Source: a bacterium
GTDB taxonomy: Bacteria; Verrucomicrobiota; Verrucomicrobiia; Verrucomicrobiales; Akkermansiaceae
Assembly: GCA_018222765.1 (NCBI GenBank)
Contig: JAAEZT010000031.1
Location: forward strand, 1-37,955
Reading direction: 5' to 3'
DNA length: 37,955 nt
Notes under the pieces: generated by a model
Seen by the model: the letters and a program-made list of their open reading frames with translations, nothing else
The model's database searches: none
Told to the model about the DNA's origin: nothing
Made by a program: the position numbers and the translations under genes
Shown: one piece after another, positions 1-24,259 of the stretch
How the letters are laid out: each line of letters begins with the position of its first letter
How positions within the stretch are numbered: the first letter of the stretch is position 1

Positions 1-155
1 ACTTTTTCGACACCGATGATGGGAGCTGGGGTTGGACTCGCATGTCAGAGGTGAGACTTGACGGCAATGCGGTTGTTACCATTCCCGAACCTTCAAGTTT
101 CGCTCTCTTCGGACTGGCTGGATTTACCTTAATCTGCTTCCGCCGCCGCAAGTAA
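1..155 (+). CDS. PEP-CTERM sorting-signal protein, C-terminal fragment
   Basis: An open frame enters from the left edge and stops at TAA 153-155. Its last residues form a complete PEP-CTERM tail: a Pro-Glu-Pro triad (IPEPSS), a hydrophobic segment of about 15 residues (FALFGLAGFTLICF), then a basic RRRK end. In this family the tail directs an exported protein to exosortase, which processes it at the envelope. About 25 residues of the upstream domain are visible, too few to name it. A strong terminator follows about 40 bp downstream, so this is the end of its transcript. Confidence 0.8.
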   Translation, partial: FFDTDDGSWGWTRMSEVRLDGNAVVTIPEPSSFALFGLAGFTLICFRRRK

Positions 156-293: not shown

Positions 294-3200
294 ATGAAAT
301 CTCCTGATAGTCACACGGATACAGCAACGAGTTCGCAATCTAGAAACCGGAAACGGAGGGTGATCATCGGAGTCTCTCTGCCGCTCATAGCCGCGATCTT
401 CGTAGGAACCCAATCAGACGAGAACGACACGTCCGCTGATACGCTTGATAAGCCCTATCTGGTCCCTGCACCGTCAGAGCCGCCCATGGAGAGCTTGGAC
501 GATCCCAACGCTGACGGCTGGCCTACCGAAGCTCTGGCAAAGCAGGCCAAGGAACAACTCAAGGGAATCGGCAAGTTGATTCTGAACCGCGAGAAAATCG
601 ACCGCAAAACACTCCGACAATTCATCACGGAAGACATTTCATTTAACACCTTGAAGCCGGTGAAGCTCGACGCGGCTTATTCGGATTCTGCGCTCAATGT
701 TGTCCGCATGACAAATCAGTCAGCTGCGGTAAAGCGGCAAGGTCTCGCCGAACTCGAAGCCGCGCTTCGCAAGCTTGGCAATCCGCTGACAGGAGCGACC
801 GACCTCCGTTTTGAGCCCAAGGTGTTTCGGGTGCAGCAGGAAGCAGACTCATTTACCACACAACAGTATGTCGCCATCTCAGGAATCACGGAAAGCGGAG
901 CCATCGAACAGCATGCCACTTGGCACACCCGCTGGGTCAATGGCTTCGGCGACGGCCTGCCCCGCCTCACTTCACTCGAGGTCAGCGATTTCGAGCAGGT
1001 CAACTCCCATACGCCTGGCCGAACCCTATTTTCAGATTGCACCCAGTCCGTTCTGGGCTCGACTACTTCATTTCAACAACAACTCGGGCGAGGTTACGGT
1101 CACTGGCTTCGGCACATCCAGGACACCCAATACTTTTTCTGGTTAGGCAATCCGGGCATCGCCCTTGGTGACGTCAATGGCGACGGCCTCGATGACCTCT
1201 ATCTCTGCCAGGAAGATGGACTACCCAACCGACTCTACGTTCAAAACCCTGACGGCACCCTGCGCGACGAATCAGAAAAATCCGGCGTTAATTGGCTGGA
1301 GGGGTCCCGCAGCGCCCTGCTCGTGGATTTTGACAACGACGGAGATCAGGATCTCGCCGTAGCAATCATCGGCGGCATCATCCTGGCGGCTAATCAAGGC
1401 GACGGTCGCTTCGAATTTCAAACCCTGATCCCCACTGCCGACGACCTCATGTCGATGAGCGCTGCAGATTACGACGAAGACGGACTCCTCGACCTCTACA
1501 TCTGCACCTATTATCAAAACGGCCCCCAGGGCCCTCAATCCCGTTCAAGCGGAATCGGTGGAGCATTTGTTTACCACGATTCAAACTCCGGCGGGCCCAA
1601 CAGTCTTTTCAGAAACGAAACAACGAGGGGAGGCGAATTTAAATTCCGCAACGTAACCACTGAAACCGGCCTCGACGACAACAACCTGCGATGGAGCCTC
1701 GCCGCTTCCTGGGAGGACTACGACAATGATGGCGATCAGGATCTCTACGTCGCTAATGACTTCGGACGAAACAATCTCTTTCGCAACGACGGAGGAAATT
1801 TCATCGATGTTGCCGCCGAATCGGGGGTCGAAGACAGCGCGTCTGGAATGGCTGTCACTTGGGGAGACTACGACCGCAATGGCCACATGGACGTCTATGT
1901 CAGCAACATGTTTTCAGCCGCCGGGAACCGCATCACCTTTCAAGAGCAATTCAAGCCGGATGCCCCCAAAGAAGTGCGATCCCGACTCCAGCGTTTCGCA
2001 CGCGGCAGCACTCTCATGAAGGCTCTCGAAAACGGCTCGTTTGAAGACATAAGCGATTCAGCCTCAGTTGCCATGGCTCGCTGGGCGTGGGGAACCAGTT
2101 TTGTTGATCTAAACAACGATGGTTGGCAGGACATTGTCGTCGCCAACGGAAACATAACCGGCGAAGACCCGGGCGATTTGTGAAGTTTCTATTGGCGACA
2201 GGTCGTGTCGCAGTCACTCAACAAAGCCGACGAGCAAAAAACAAGCCAGTTGGAAGAAGCCAACGCCACCTTCGGCGCCATGATGCGTCGCGGCCGATCC
2301 TATAGCGGAAGGGAACGAAACTGCGTCTTCCTCAACACCGCAAAGCCAGACGGACGCTTCGCCAACATCTCGGCCACCTCTGGAATCGATCTCCCTGACG
2401 ATGGACGGGCCTTGGTTGCCACCGATTGGGATCACGATGGCGATCTCGATGTATGGATCTCAAACCGAAATGCCCCACGACTACGATTCTTCCGCAACGA
2501 CGTTCCCTCCGACCACCACCATCTGGCACTCCGCCTTCAAGGCACTGCCAAAACCACAAACCGCGACGCGATCGGCGCCCGAATTGAAGTGATTCTCGCC
2601 GACGGACAAGCTCTGATCAAAACCCTGCGAGCGGGACAATCATTTCTCTCCCAGTCCACCAAATGGGTTCATTTCGGCCTGGGAGATTCCGACACCATCA
2701 AATCAGTGAAGGTGCAATGGCCGGGCGGAGAGACTGAGACCTTTACCAATCTCGAAGTCGATCAACGCTACCGGCTGATCCAAAACAATGGTAACGCTGA
2801 AAAAACCAAAACACAAAAACGTCAAACCTCAATCTCTCCCTCTCCCGTCGATTTACCTCCTGCCAACAGCAAGGCCCGCATACCTCTGGCCACTCTCCTC
2901 CCCATGGCGAACTTGAATTATAGGACTTTCAGGGGAGCCTCAAAAGCCCTGCCTACCGGACAGGGCAAAGCTTACGTGCTAAGTCTTTGGGCAAGCTGGT
3001 GTCCACCATGTGAAGAAGAATTACAGGAGCTGAAAGAGCGGGCACAAGAGCTTCGCGATGCCGGCATCGAAATCATCGCCCTCGCCGTCGATGGTCTTGA
3101 TGAGGACAGCTCGAAAGCTCCCGACGCCCAAAAAATGGCCAAGCAGCTGGAGCTTCCCTTCGCCAACGGCAGAGCAACGAGAGAGTTGATCAGCTACCTT

Positions 3201-4001
3201 CAAGCCGCCCATGACTACCAAATCACCGGTGCCCAAACGCTGCCCGTTCCCGTCAGTTTCCTAATCGATGACAACGGGAAAATTGCGGTCATTTACAAAG
3301 GCAAACTGAACCCCGACGATCTGAAAACAGATCTCGGGCACTCAAAGGGGACACCGCTCGAACGCTTTGCCCGCTCCGCCCCCCTCCCCGGCCGGACTCT
3401 TCCAATTCCAAGCGTTTCCCGTCACCGCAATCAATACGAAGCGCAATACCGATTCGCTACCTTCCTGCAACAGCGAGGGCACACAAGACTTGCCAATGCT
3501 GAAAACCGGGCGCTGATTCAATCCTTTCCAAAAAATGCTGGACCACACAACAATTTGGGAATTTCTCATATCAGGGCTAAGAAATTCGATCTGGCTGAAG
3601 CCAGTTTCCGGGAGGCCCTACGCATCCAGTCCGACCACAGTGAAGCCAATGCCAACTTGGGCACTCTCCTTGCTCAGAAGGGCAATCTCCCCGAAGCCGC
3701 CAACCATTTTAAAAGAGCCCTCAGAGGAAATCCACAAGACATTAAGAACCTGACGATCCTGAGCAGGCTGTTGCTCAAATTGGAGCGTTGGCCCGAAGCG
3801 CAAGTTGCTCTGGAAAAAATGTTGATAACAGAGCCCGATTCCGCAAATCATCACACCAATCTTGGCCTTGCACTGGCAAAGCAAGGGCAATTCACCCTCG
3901 CAATTACTCACTTGGAAATGGCGCTCAAACTTCAGCCCAACCACGCGGAGGCACAGCAGAACCTGAAGGTCCTGCGCCGCTTGGGAGACAAAGGGAGCTA
4001 G
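294..4001 (+). CDS. Putative selenoprotein: FG-GAP/ASPIC-UnbV (CRTAC1-like), thioredoxin-fold and TPR fusion, exported
   Basis: This is a single 1235-residue reading frame interrupted only by TGA at 2181-2183 (residue 630). The basic N-terminus and hydrophobic residues 22-40 form a signal peptide or membrane anchor. FG-GAP/VCBS calcium-binding repeats (DVNGDGLDD, DFDNDGDQD, DYDEDGLLD, DYDNDGDQD, DYDRNGHMD, DLNNDGWQD) run from about 289 to 615. Another, DWDHDGDLD, lies after the TGA near 705. An ASPIC/UnbV domain covers about 755-825. A TlpA/ResA-like redox domain has WASWCPPC with cysteines 903 and 906. About five TPRs fill 1045-1235. The FG-GAP/UnbV domain is split by the TGA yet continues in the same frame (GDL-stop-SFYWRQVVSQS), and a SECIS-like hairpin lies just downstream. 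I therefore read the TGA as selenocysteine. Alternatives are a nonsense mutation, or two proteins with the second starting at GTG 2205, which has no ribosome binding site and sits inside the hairpin. The exact role is unknown; an envelope redox function is inferred. Confidence 0.75.
2181..2211 (+). promoter_or_regulatory. Candidate bacterial SECIS element following in-frame UGA
   Basis: Seventeen nucleotides after the UGA (2181-2183) a perfect 6-bp stem, GCGACA (2195-2200) with TGTCGC (2206-2211), closes a 5-nt loop GGTCG. Published rules for bacterial SECIS ask for a stem-loop just downstream of UGA, an apical loop of 3-14 nt starting 16-37 nt after the UGA, and a G in the first two loop positions. 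All three are met. The stem is short and was found by eye, so folding and conservation still need testing. Confidence 0.65.
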
Positions 4002-20464: not shown

Positions 20465-23400
20465 TCAGGCATCTAGCCTCATCGCCGCTTTTTGGGCGGC
20501 CGATTTCCCTCCCCCTTTCGGATTGTCCTTCTCAGAGGTGAGGCGCATTCCGACCGGCTTCGAGACCCCGAACTCTTCCATCGTCACGCCATACATGACA
20601 TCGGCACGCTCCATAGTGCGCTTGGAGTGCGTCACGATGATGAACTGACTTTGATCGATGAAGGCATCGAGCACTTTCAGGAAGCGCCCAATGTTCGATT
20701 CATCAAGCGGCGCATCCAACTCATCTAGAACACAGAACGGACTGGGTTTGACCATATAAATCGAGAAGAGCAGCGCAACTGCCGTCATCGAACGCTCACC
20801 ACCCGACATCAAAGTGATTGACTGCAGCTTCTTACCCGGAGGTTTCGCAATCACCTCGATACCGCACTCAAGCGGGTCATCTTCGTCCTGAAGAATAAGA
20901 TCTGCCGTCGCCTTATCACCGAAGAGACGTTTGAACATTCCTTTGAAGTTCTTGGCAACGGCCTTAAAGGTCTCGGCGAAGAGGCGCTCGGACTCAATGT
21001 TAATTCGTTCAATGATCTCCAGAAGCTTGGCTTTGGAATTCACCAAATCGTCGTGCTGATTCTTGGTAAAAGTGTGGCGCTCCTCAAGCTCGTCAAATTC
21101 TTCAATGGCATCGAGATTCACGGGGCCCATTGAGTCGAGACGGCGTTTCAGGTCAGCCACGACGGCCTCTACAAAGTCCCAATCGGGACCTTCTTCGGGA
21201 AGCGCCGCTTTAATAACTTCTTCAACGGGCTCTGCGACCACCTCTTCCTCAACTGCTTCATTTTCTTCGCCCTGGGATTCCTCGCCAGACTCAGTATTTT
21301 CCACAACCGACTTGCGGCGCCTTCCTTTTTTCTCAGCTTCCTTGCGCTCGTTGATACAGGCAATCAAGGCGTGGCTGTCAGGACGGAAGATGGTAAGGTC
21401 AACCTGGTGACGCTCCATCGTTGACTCGAGAAGATTCTCCATCCGAAGATCCAGCTTGGTCGCCGAAACTTCCTCTTTACTGATCTGATTAACCACCTTG
21501 GACTGGCGATTGCGAATTTCAGAGAAGGAAGCTTCCGCACTCTCAATACCTCGCGCCAACTCCTTCCGTTGCTCGTCTGACTGACCAAGTTCGCCAGTCA
21601 ATTTCCCAACCTCGACCTTGTAGCCTTCCATCTCCTGACGGAGCCCGATATTTTCCTCATCTCCTTTGCCGATCCGTTCCTTCGCCGCTGCGATTTCGTG
21701 CTTCCGGCGCGAGTTCAACTCAGCTAATTCACGAATACGGCGACTCATGGGATCCTGCTCCTTGGCGGCGGAATCACGGGCCTGACGTTCCACGGCCAAA
21801 GCGGTTCGCGCCTCGTTTAATTGTTCGGAAGCCTCTTTCTCACTCTTGATCGATGCTTCGAGTCGGGACTGCAGGTTCCGGCTGTCGTCTTCCAGGGCCG
21901 TGAGACGTTCCCGCGCCCGAGCCAATTCATTTTCCAAGGCCGAACGACTATCAGTAGCAGTCTTTTCGCGGCCTTCGAGTTCCTCACGCTCCCACTGGTT
22001 GTTCCCAACTTTCGAGTCAATACTGTCCGCTTCGCGTTTCGCCAGTTTAAGCTGCCCGCTAAGGGTGGACTCTTCAACACGATGACGCTGCAGACGATCT
22101 TTCGCCTGCTCCAACTCTTCGCGCAGTTCCTTGGTTCGTTCCTCGGCGGTGAGAATTTCCCGCTGGGCCGTTTCCTCCGCCTTGGCGAGTTCCCCCACCT
22201 CGGCGGAGAGAGCATTGATCTCGTTGTTTCGCTTGAGAACAGAATTGTCCTTCCCTCCGCTACTGCCTCCTCGAAGAACTCCCTCGGGCGTCAAAATTTC
22301 ACCGCTCTTGGTCACAAAGGTCAGCTCGGGGTATCCGGAACGAAGCTTCAATGCGGCCGCGCGGTCCGGCACGATGAGCACTTCACTGAGAAGTTTTTCC
22401 ATCAAACCAACAAACTTGGCGTCCACCTTAACCACATCCAGAGCCCATGCTGACGCTCCCTCCGGAAGAGCTTCGATTTGCGTACCTTTGGAGGCTGGCA
22501 GAAAGCTCTCGGGAATGATCGAGGCCATTCCTTTTTTCCCTTCGAGCAAACGCTCGACAATCACATCAGCGAGCTCCTCATCGCGCACGATGATAGCCTG
22601 TAAATAACGATCGAGCGCGGATTCCACAGCAACCGCGTATTCGTCAGGCGCCTTAAGTTGCGCACCCAGCAGGCCTTTCAAACCAGGCTTAATCAAATCT
22701 GGATCATTTAGTCCCTTGAGAACAGCCTGGGTTCCTTTTTGAAGTCCCTCACCACTGGCAACCAATTGCTTCAACACCTCCAAGCGGGAGGATTTTTGGG
22801 CCAAAGTCCGGTGGGCTTCCTCCGCCGTTCTTCGGGCAACATCTAGTGAAGCTCGTACTTCTTCAAATTCTCTCTTCGTCTTCTCAAGTGCTTCCTCAAG
22901 ACCAGGTAGGGCTTTCTGGTGTTCTTCGAGAAGTTTCACGAACTGATCACGCTCGGCAACCGCCTTGGTCTGTTCGCCACGAAGACGCTCGGACTCTTCA
23001 ACGAGCTGCTTCATGCGATCCTTGTTGCCTTCCATTTGGCTCAAGGCGCTTTCGATCTTAGCCTGGGCCGAGGCGATAATATTCTGGGTGGCGTTGGCTT
23101 CCGCCCGGGCCCGACGAAGCTGATTTTCGACCTCATGCCGTTCTTTGGCGAGTGACCCGGAAGCCTCGCGGCGTTCCTCAGCCTGCGCTTCTTTTTCCGC
23201 AATGCGCTTTTCCAACTCCTCGAGAGCCGCCTGACTTTGTTGCAAGGTCTGCTGCTGCTCGATGAGATTGGAGTCGGTCTCGTTGATTTCATTTTCATTC
23301 TGCTCGAGACGCTCGCCAAGTTCCCCTTTTCGCTCTTCATTGAAAGCAATACGATTTTTAGCCACGGCGATGGCATTCTTCTTATCCGAAAGTCTCTGCC

Positions 23401-24259
23401 GCAACCCGGAAAGTTCGGCATCGAGAGCCTGCGCCTTGTCGCGAGCGTTGACCACCGCGGCTTCGTGTTGCGGCATCTCGACCTCGATGACATCGCGCTG
23501 CTTTTCCAAGGAATTCAGTGAAACGGTCAATTCCTCACGCTCTCCGGTGAGTTTTTCATAAAGTCGATGACTCAGGTGGGTATCAAGAACCCTGACATCT
23601 TTCGCAAGAGCCTGATAGCGGCGAGCCTTGGAAACCTGCCGCTTCAGGGAATTGATCCGACGATTCTGTTCGGCAAGAACATCAGAAACCCGAAGCAAAT
23701 TACCTTCGGTATATTCCAATTTCCGCAAGGCCTCCTTTTTCTCCTTCTTCGACTTGGTAATTCCAGCCGCTTCCTCGAAAACCTGACGACGATCCTCCGG
23801 GCGTGCCGAGAGCAACATATCGATCTTCCCTTGCTCCATGATAGAATAGGAAGAACGACCGATACCGGTATCCATAAATAACTCCCCGATGTCGCGAAGG
23901 CGACAGCGGGTTCCGTTAATCAAATACTCCGATTTTCCATCTCGGTAGACCCGGCGGGTCACGGAGACTTCATTAAATTCTGTTTTTAGTGCCTGCTCAC
24001 AATCGGCCAGAGTGAGTGTGACTTCCGCCATCCCGTGCGCTTTCCGCTTATCCGCTCCATTAAAAATAACGTCTGCCATCTCACCTCCACGAAGCGCTTT
24101 GGCCGAGGTCTCACCCAAGACCCAACGAACCGCATCAACGACATTGGACTTGCCACAACCATTGGGGCCCACAATCCCCGTCACTCCCTGGGAGAATTCA
24201 AAGATCGTTTTATCGGCAAATGACTTAAAGCCGTGGAGAGAGAGAGATTTTAAATACAT
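20465..24259 (-). CDS. smc: Chromosome segregation protein SMC
   Basis: This is a 1264-residue SMC ATPase that compacts and segregates chromosomes with ScpA and ScpB. The Walker A box GPNGCGKS is at residues 31-38. Two long coiled coils flank a hinge near the middle (GLKGLLGAQLKAPDEYAVAVE, then EGVLRGGSSGGKDN). The C-terminal head has the ABC signature LMSGGERSMTA and Walker B/D-loop FCVLDELDAPLDESN. It is about 70-90 residues longer than typical SMCs, mainly from a charged insert near residues 975-1030: a KKGRRRK patch followed by a Glu-rich, Val-rich stretch, lying in the second coiled coil before the head. The scp partners are not in this window. Its ATG overlaps a divergent, unconvincing frame. 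Confidence 0.96.
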   Translation of the reverse strand: MYLKSLSLHGFKSFADKTIFEFSQGVTGIVGPNGCGKSNVVDAVRWVLGETSAKALRGGEMADVIFNGADKRKAHGMAEVTLTLADCEQALKTEFNEVSVTRRVYRDGKSEYLINGTRCRLRDIGELFMDTGIGRSSYSIMEQGKIDMLLSARPEDRRQVFEEAAGITKSKKEKKEALRKLEYTEGNLLRVSDVLAEQNRRINSLKRQVSKARRYQALAKDVRVLDTHLSHRLYEKLTGEREELTVSLNSLEKQRDVIEVEMPQHEAAVVNARDKAQALDAELSGLRQRLSDKKNAIAVAKNRIAFNEERKGELGERLEQNENEINETDSNLIEQQQTLQQSQAALEELEKRIAEKEAQAEERREASGSLAKERHEVENQLRRARAEANATQNIIASAQAKIESALSQMEGNKDRMKQLVEESERLRGEQTKAVAERDQFVKLLEEHQKALPGLEEALEKTKREFEEVRASLDVARRTAEEAHRTLAQKSSRLEVLKQLVASGEGLQKGTQAVLKGLNDPDLIKPGLKGLLGAQLKAPDEYAVAVESALDRYLQAIIVRDEELADVIVERLLEGKKGMASIIPESFLPASKGTQIEALPEGASAWALDVVKVDAKFVGLMEKLLSEVLIVPDRAAALKLRSGYPELTFVTKSGEILTPEGVLRGGSSGGKDNSVLKRNNEINALSAEVGELAKAEETAQREILTAEERTKELREELEQAKDRLQRHRVEESTLSGQLKLAKREADSIDSKVGNNQWEREELEGREKTATDSRSALENELARARERLTALEDDSRNLQSRLEASIKSEKEASEQLNEARTALAVERQARDSAAKEQDPMSRRIRELAELNSRRKHEIAAAKERIGKGDEENIGLRQEMEGYKVEVGKLTGELGQSDEQRKELARGIESAEASFSEIRNRQSKVVNQISKEEVSATKLDLRMENLLESTMERHQVDLTIFRPDSHALIACINERKEAEKKGRRRKSVVENTESGEESQGEENEAVEEEVVAEPVEEVIKAALPEEGPDWDFVEAVVADLKRRLDSMGPVNLDAIEEFDELEERHTFTKNQHDDLVNSKAKLLEIIERINIESERLFAETFKAVAKNFKGMFKRLFGDKATADLILQDEDDPLECGIEVIAKPPGKKLQSITLMSGGERSMTAVALLFSIYMVKPSPFCVLDELDAPLDESNIGRFLKVLDAFIDQSQFIIVTHSKRTMERADVMYGVTMEEFGVSKPVGMRLTSEKDNPKGGGKSAAQKAAMRLDA

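Follow-up and report, generated by a model that had tools for sequence, protein, structure and literature searches.

The prokaryotic selenoproteins catalogued in Table 1 of PMC13188914 have in common with the gene described here an in-frame UGA codon, a hairpin that follows the same bacterial SECIS model, the SelA/SelB/tRNA-Sec machinery, and the exchange of selenocysteine (Sec) for Cys in homologues. The propeller and UnbV fold of the gene product is that of the CRTAC1/ASPIC-UnbV FG-GAP proteins (Pfam PF13517 and PF07593; PDB 9etn, murine CRTAC1), and its TlpA/ResA-like thioredoxin domain recurs in the ResA-like WAxxUGC selenoproteins (NF041054) and in the UGC-containing TlpA family. MsrA, including its Sec form, is related by proposed analogy only; in the available text of a 2026 review, its scheme consists of a catalytic residue, a resolving Cys and recycling by thioredoxin. 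A 2016 planctomycete paper (PMC4807772) also reports selenoproteins, and its S9, a list of the candidates of two planctomycetes, could include a gene of the kind analyzed here. Here, we present an analysis of a 37,955-nt window (positions 1-37,955 of contig JAAEZT010000031.1, from an Akkermansiaceae bacterium) and of the homologues of one of its genes. We consider it very probable (about 0.95) that the UGA at codon 630 of this gene is a Sec codon read by the SelA, SelB, SelD and tRNA-Sec of its own genome and that the gene belongs to an uncatalogued selenoprotein family, whose members occur in Planctomycetota, Verrucomicrobiota and a few other phyla.

Positions 294-4001 on the plus strand form an open frame of 1235 residues, the sole interruption of which is a TGA at 2181-2183 (codon 630); the original prediction of an in-frame UGA splitting a frame of this length was thereby reproduced. 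Read with table 11, the same interval yields two ORFs, 294-2183 and 2205-4001, and a full-length product would require that the UGA be read. Matches from four homologous loci (L021-L024) cover residues 1-1233 or 1-1234 of the 1235-residue protein. Pfam finds FG-GAP_3, UnbV_ASPIC, AhpC-TSA and TPR families in the read-through protein, in agreement with the FG-GAP/UnbV-thioredoxin-TPR fusion that had been proposed. The end of the upstream gene (window positions 1-153) encodes what we take to be a PEP-CTERM-like tail (PEPSSFALFGLAG...RRRK). The features of the locus are as follows.

294-4001, plus strand: predicted complete coding sequence, 1235 residues with Sec630; stop codon TAG at 3999-4001.
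294-413, plus strand: basic N-terminal stretch and a single hydrophobic segment, residues 1-40, read from the sequence.
999-2501, plus strand: FG-GAP beta-propeller with the CRTAC1 fold, about residues 236-736; Pfam FG-GAP_3, E 4e-40, 136.7 bits (cut-off 26.9).
2181-2183, plus strand: UGA codon, predicted to encode Sec630; TGA in 83/83 site rows and in 137/166 rows when rows fetched for lacking a stop are included.
2195-2211, plus strand: candidate SECIS hairpin, 6-bp stem 2195-2200/2206-2211, loop GGUCG at 2201-2205; the UGA is separated from the stem by 11 nt and from the loop by 17 nt.
2322-2324, plus strand: Cys677 of an SGxERN-C motif, candidate resolving residue; Cys in 60/62 aligned rows.
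2568-2771, plus strand: UnbV_ASPIC domain, residues 759-826; Pfam PF07593, E 1.8e-20, 73 bits (cut-off 23.4).
2937-3290, plus strand: TlpA/ResA-like thioredoxin domain, residues 882-999, with WCPPC (Cys903 and Cys906); Pfam AhpC-TSA, E 3.7e-14, 53.2 bits.
3546-3965, plus strand: C-terminal TPR repeats, about residues 1085-1224; Pfam TPR families, and helical repeats in the AlphaFold model.

Because a basic stretch is followed by one hydrophobic segment at the N-terminus, this region is probably an export signal or anchor and the protein probably exported; some other family members begin, in translation, with lipobox-like signals. An AlphaFold2 model of residues 41-1235, built from a 62-row alignment with Cys substituted for Sec, has a mean pLDDT of 90.4 and a pTM of 0.90. 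In this model, residue 630 (model residue 590) is predicted to open a helix that spans model residues 589-600 and lies between propeller strands. Based on structure comparison, the propeller and UnbV part matches CRTAC1 (9etn_A; Z 41.0, 460 residues, rmsd 2.3, 23% identity) over model residues 196-792, the UnbV part included, and the VIA-align rows ranked below CRTAC1 show merely that many propellers resemble each other. The thioredoxin domain resembles its counterparts at the domain level only, and whole-protein models score below their thresholds (ResA, 51.1 bits against 170; TlpA, 43.2 against 230). Its cysteines are nearly constant in the main group (Cys903 in 60/62 and Cys906 in 61/62 aligned rows).

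The UGA is conserved. Each of the 77 loci, which were fetched by six peptide patterns, none spanning the UGA site, has at least one homologous site, and the 83 sites in total are without exception TGA; in this comparison, 68 of 151 tblastn rows (identity at most 30.1%), which aligned to other FG-GAP blades or to other genes, were dropped. Identity across the site ranges from 37 to 87% in the 83 site rows, and the downstream frame is conserved. According to their titles, the 77 loci derive from Planctomycetota, Verrucomicrobiota, Acidobacteriota, Lentisphaeria and Thermodesulfobacteriota, and nearly all are from MAGs. The genome that carries the window has eight family copies, i.e., seven UGA paralogues besides 294-4001, each with one TGA, together with four further short partial matches without a stop. 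Asp628, Leu629 and Ser631 are invariant in 62 aligned proteins; the invariance of the site itself and of Trp634 and Arg635 in this alignment is by construction, because the pattern required TGA followed by Trp-Arg. The same pattern picked the 90-member set used for the hairpin (see below), whereas the 83-site comparison is free of this bias. One locus, L167 (G357:C78:24254-25987), from a genome positive for SelA, has three in-frame TGA codons, of which one occupies the Sec site and the others lie in the linker that follows it; the additional codons possibly encode further Sec residues or mark a frameshift or a decayed copy. Another, L083, is titled Akkermansia muciniphila and forms a tight tree group at the family locus with L077 (Verrucomicrobiales LJ.21), and its name may be wrong.

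The hairpin downstream of the UGA has the geometry originally described, with 6 bp beginning 11 nt past the codon and a loop that lies at 17 nt and starts with GG. It falls within the constraints of the published bacterial SECIS model, i.e., a loop of 3-9 nt, a stem of 4-16 bp, a G in the first two loop positions, a spacing of 16-37 nt and an MFE of at most -7.5. Its folding (-9.3 kcal/mol, z -1.32) is equalled by 25 of 200 shuffles; thus, the single sequence is weak evidence for the element that had been proposed, whereas the family-wide signal is far beyond chance. Among the 90 members (93 pattern matches minus two own-genome repeats and one short or ambiguous sequence), 84 conform to the SECIS model compared with 28.2±4.7 (maximum 38 in 30 runs) under synonymous shuffling. 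Similarly, 129 of 136 UGA members conform to it compared with 9 of 29 members without UGA, and a loop beginning GG or GU at 16-20 nt is present in 99/136 and 1/29, respectively. The hairpin columns are paired in 92.7% of cells (84 distinct rows) compared with 13.7-67.7% in slid versions. Two-sided changes occur in two of the six pairs, a count reached by 59 of 500 shuffles; in its covariation score and in its paired share, the hairpin exceeds all 500 shuffles. The fold energy of the 48 nt downstream of the UGA is ordinary relative to synonymous shuffles (mean z -0.29; 90 members), and the unusual feature of this region is the placed loop rather than the overall fold energy. Moreover, the hairpin region shows fixed codon choices whose shares far exceed the general usage in the family: Ser631 is AGY in 88/90 members (34% background), Val638 is GTG in 77/90 (31%) and Ser639 is TCG in 75/90 (24%). 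Three distant UGA members with a different protein sequence past the site (L195, L197 and L199) have stems unrelated in sequence to those of the main group and keep the GGUC loop, 21 nt past the UGA.

The sel genes that had been suggested as a check are present in the genome: SelA (488 bits; cut-off 268), SelB (272 bits; cut-off 242) and SelD (374 bits; cut-off 125) exceed their cut-offs, and a tRNA-Sec with anticodon tca exceeds its gathering score (54 bits; gathering 47). The SelD gene (L010:1501-2430) also contains a UGA, which corresponds to the U of SSCGGUASK. SelA was found in 46 of 50 family-carrying genomes, in 45 of them over the cut-off (50 of about 60 such genomes, by contig-prefix count, entered the search), and SelB was over the cut-off in three of the four that miss SelA. 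As a baseline, SelA was present in 17 of 288 sampled Verrucomicrobiota, among which the UGA form was found in the window's own genome only (best 12-13 candidates per genome scored), and in 193 of 294 Planctomycetota, of which 81 were family-positive among the matches listed (best 12-13 candidates per genome). Within Planctomycetota, 68/81 family-positive and 125/213 family-negative genomes have SelA (Fisher p 3e-5), a modest association because SelA is common there anyway. A SelB search limited to the 13 family-positive, SelA-negative Planctomycetota genomes gave six over the cut-off; overall, SelA or SelB is present in 74 of the 81. One planctomycete, G398, has TGA at the site though SelA was not found and SelB was not over the cut-off. 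In G319, a 9.2-Mb MAG and the genome of L060, there are 28 family matches, 24 of them with one TGA, and SelA and SelB were not found; it contains either a very large selenoprotein set or represents a mixed and incomplete bin. Incompleteness likely explains the machinery gaps in both G398 and G319.

Homologues were expected in the original prediction to have Cys or UGA at position 630, and indeed TGA is found at 83/83 sites in close relatives and Cys in 11 distant rows. The accompanying view that any other residue would count against Sec agrees with the closest relatives, which all have TGA, but not with some paralogues, which have Glu, Gln, Ala, Arg, Asn, His, Thr or Asp. In the 166 of 189 aligned rows kept for the residue tally and the tree, all distinct, Sec accounts for 137, Cys for 11, and Arg, Glu, Asn, His, Ala, Gln, Thr or Asp for 18; 137 site codons are TGA and 11 are TGC, the latter comprising all Cys rows. 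These shares are not frequencies, L151-L166 having been fetched for lacking a stop. The motif of the Cys clade is DYC(T/S)xxW, and with E-values of about 1e-20 to 1e-28 to the profile, this clade lies far from the main group. In the 166-row tree, which is quick, has long branches and is approximate, its members form one group (support 84) adjoining the Asp row L111 and the Sec rows L168 and L169. Family matches were re-searched in 17 Planctomycetota genomes and in G319. Seven Planctomycetota genomes have the family with neither SelA nor SelB over the cut-off; among their matches, five (G341, G434, G511, G569 and G589) have Cys only, while G503 has Thr and G398 has TGA. The matches in two SelA-positive genomes, G403 and G413, are likewise of the Cys form only; hence, genomes lacking the machinery are not the sole setting for Cys. 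The 18 rows with neither Sec nor Cys, 16 of which come from SelA-positive genomes, are not what one would usually expect of a residue with a purely redox role. In sixteen paralogues (L151-L166), all from SelA-positive genomes, the Sec position is taken by Glu (3), Gln (2), Ala (2), Arg (4), Asn (3) or His (2), with the following Ser retained in 15 and Trp-Arg in 14; a swap of Sec for residues other than Cys, as seen here, is unusual.

A lone in-frame stop usually points to an error, and the TGA could in principle reflect a sequencing error, a pseudogene or a general reassignment of UGA. We regard these explanations as refuted and their probability as negligible. Independent assemblies of several phyla (by record titles) share the identical TGA at this codon, at 83/83 sites, and therefore a misread TGG or TGC, as considered in the original prediction, is excluded. 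Further arguments against this group of explanations are the eight copies in one genome, the conserved downstream frame, and TGA still terminating other ORFs in the window (3 of the 15 checked, including the SMC gene at 20465-24259), in line with the earlier statement that UGA is a normal stop elsewhere in the window. If the UGA were a true stop, two proteins would result, one comprising residues 1-629 and another initiated at the GTG at 2205, and these correspond exactly to the ORFs given by table 11. However, both pieces are in one frame in 77/77 loci, the stop is always TGA and never TAA or TAG, the split falls within the propeller, and distant homologues have Cys and other sense codons at the site; in addition, the GTG at 2205 is the codon of Val638 (Val in 55/62 rows) inside the hairpin, its first G being the final loop base. 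We therefore reject split genes and consider this reading highly improbable. Equally hard to sustain is a programmed UGA readthrough in which a near-cognate tRNA inserts an ordinary residue and the hairpin acts as a readthrough stimulator. The occurrence of Glu, Gln, Arg, Asn, His, Ala, Thr or Asp at the site in some homologues would fit this idea; however, the placement and loop of the hairpin match the published SECIS model, the family is associated with SelA/SelB, and most genomes in which no machinery was detected have Cys at the site.

The conserved TGA, the family-wide SECIS, the sel genes and the Cys homologues, together with the domain architecture, support that 2181-2183 is, as originally proposed, a probable Sec codon, all of this being evidence read from sequences. 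According to this Sec reading, the hairpin that starts 11 nt past the UGA would direct Sec insertion at codon 630, and the product would be a 1235-residue selenoprotein with an N-terminal anchor, a Sec-bearing CRTAC1-type FG-GAP/UnbV propeller, a TlpA/ResA-like thioredoxin domain and TPRs. Our best guess is that the protein is an extracytoplasmic redox enzyme whose own thioredoxin domain recycles it. We infer that Sec630, at the predicted helix start on the propeller, would act as a reactive nucleophile in an extracytoplasmic redox reaction, and we find this reasonably likely. More tentatively, and by analogy to MsrA, we speculate that Cys677 could resolve the oxidised Sec, which the WCPPC thioredoxin domain of the same chain would then re-reduce. 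Cys677 is confined to Sec members (102 of 134 evaluable rows, compared with 0 of 22 others). Of the evaluable Sec rows, 98 have both Cys677 and the thioredoxin motif, 16 the motif only, 4 Cys677 only and 16 neither, the motif having been called by a crude regular expression. The presence of Cys677 only in Sec members, and mostly together with the motif, therefore suggests a Sec-Cys pair reduced by the attached domain. In a tree test, the link between Cys677 and the thioredoxin motif was not significant, and because only three independent pairs lie on supported branches, it may reflect shared ancestry. Around 17 family loci, neighbourhoods judged by eye contained no conserved partner gene, and none of the nine other window proteins scanned points to the role of the 1235-residue protein.

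It is also conceivable, though we deem it less likely, that the Sec is real but has a structural role or serves to bind a metal or metalloid instead of catalysing a redox reaction, with the thioredoxin domain acting elsewhere. FG-GAP repeats often bind Ca2+. Moreover, the Glu, Gln, His, Asn or Arg of the non-Sec paralogues could be ligands or polar stand-ins, 20 of the 134 evaluable Sec rows are without the thioredoxin motif by the crude pattern, and metal binding by Sec has been inferred in other families in the available text of the 2026 review. The polar residues in some paralogues thus leave room for a metal-binding or structural role. In contrast, TGA at 83/83 main-group sites, an exchange with Cys, which is the usual redox pattern, and the near-constant CxxC of the fused thioredoxin domain in the main group argue for the redox function that we favor.

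If the Sec reading is true, many family genes are probably annotated as two pieces, estimates of the selenium demand of the bacteria that carry them are too low, and a propeller that has a thioredoxin domain in its own chain would be a testable new selenoenzyme. The eight UGA copies in the window's own genome and the 24 in one MAG compare with a bacterial record that is reported, in the text available, as at least 46 selenoprotein genes in total. The chances are about even that these propeller selenoproteins constitute a large superfamily, so far uncatalogued and numbering up to tens of copies in a genome, that Planctomycetota and some Verrucomicrobiota are among the heaviest bacterial selenium users, and that in this superfamily the Sec chemistry is rarely replaced by Cys and elsewhere by polar residues, with the reductase domain on the same chain. 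According to the deep-Sep paper (2025), its filter retains candidates that have either a known Sec homologue or two or more Cys homologues in the top ten matches; the authors further note that Cys homologues now seem to exist for all known selenoproteins and that their method could overlook families that have none. A filter of this type could miss the propeller family, because its close relatives have Sec, some paralogues are non-Cys and the Cys clade is distant.

The literature behind our judgement of novelty, as far as its text was available, includes PMC13188914, PMC12013277, PMC4807772, PMC1088965 and PMC8938466. The whole of Table 1 in PMC13188914 (2026), with 119 families and subfamilies, has no FG-GAP, UnbV or propeller entry; this is in line with the original remark that no established selenoprotein family has such an architecture, the unnamed "hypothetical protein" rows of the catalogue being excluded through NCBIfam scans only. 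In NCBIfam 20, no model was over its cut-off among the matches listed (best 25 of 35; a single propeller match). Among the papers that our literature searches listed, judged by title and the start of the abstract and with preprints and most subscription papers outside their scope, none appears to be a prior report of such a selenoprotein, and the relevant terms have zero occurrences in PMC9312934 and PMC5029168. In plasmid records, only distant propellers were found; the 10 matches listed are mostly annotated as CRTAC1 family protein and align in the propeller/UnbV part only.

Compared with CRTAC1, with which it shares the propeller and UnbV fold, the family protein has a predicted Sec in a helical insert and fused thioredoxin and TPR domains. 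Compared with the ResA-like and TlpA selenoproteins, its thioredoxin domain has ordinary Cys residues and the Sec would lie in the propeller; in agreement with this difference, the protein scores 35.8 bits against NF041054, far under the cut-off of 300. MsrA is a different protein class, and in the analogous scheme proposed here the thioredoxin would be part of the same chain, in a family known here from sequences. Altogether, we conclude that this is a new family within a known process, in which the decoding mechanism is known and the protein class lies outside the catalogue.
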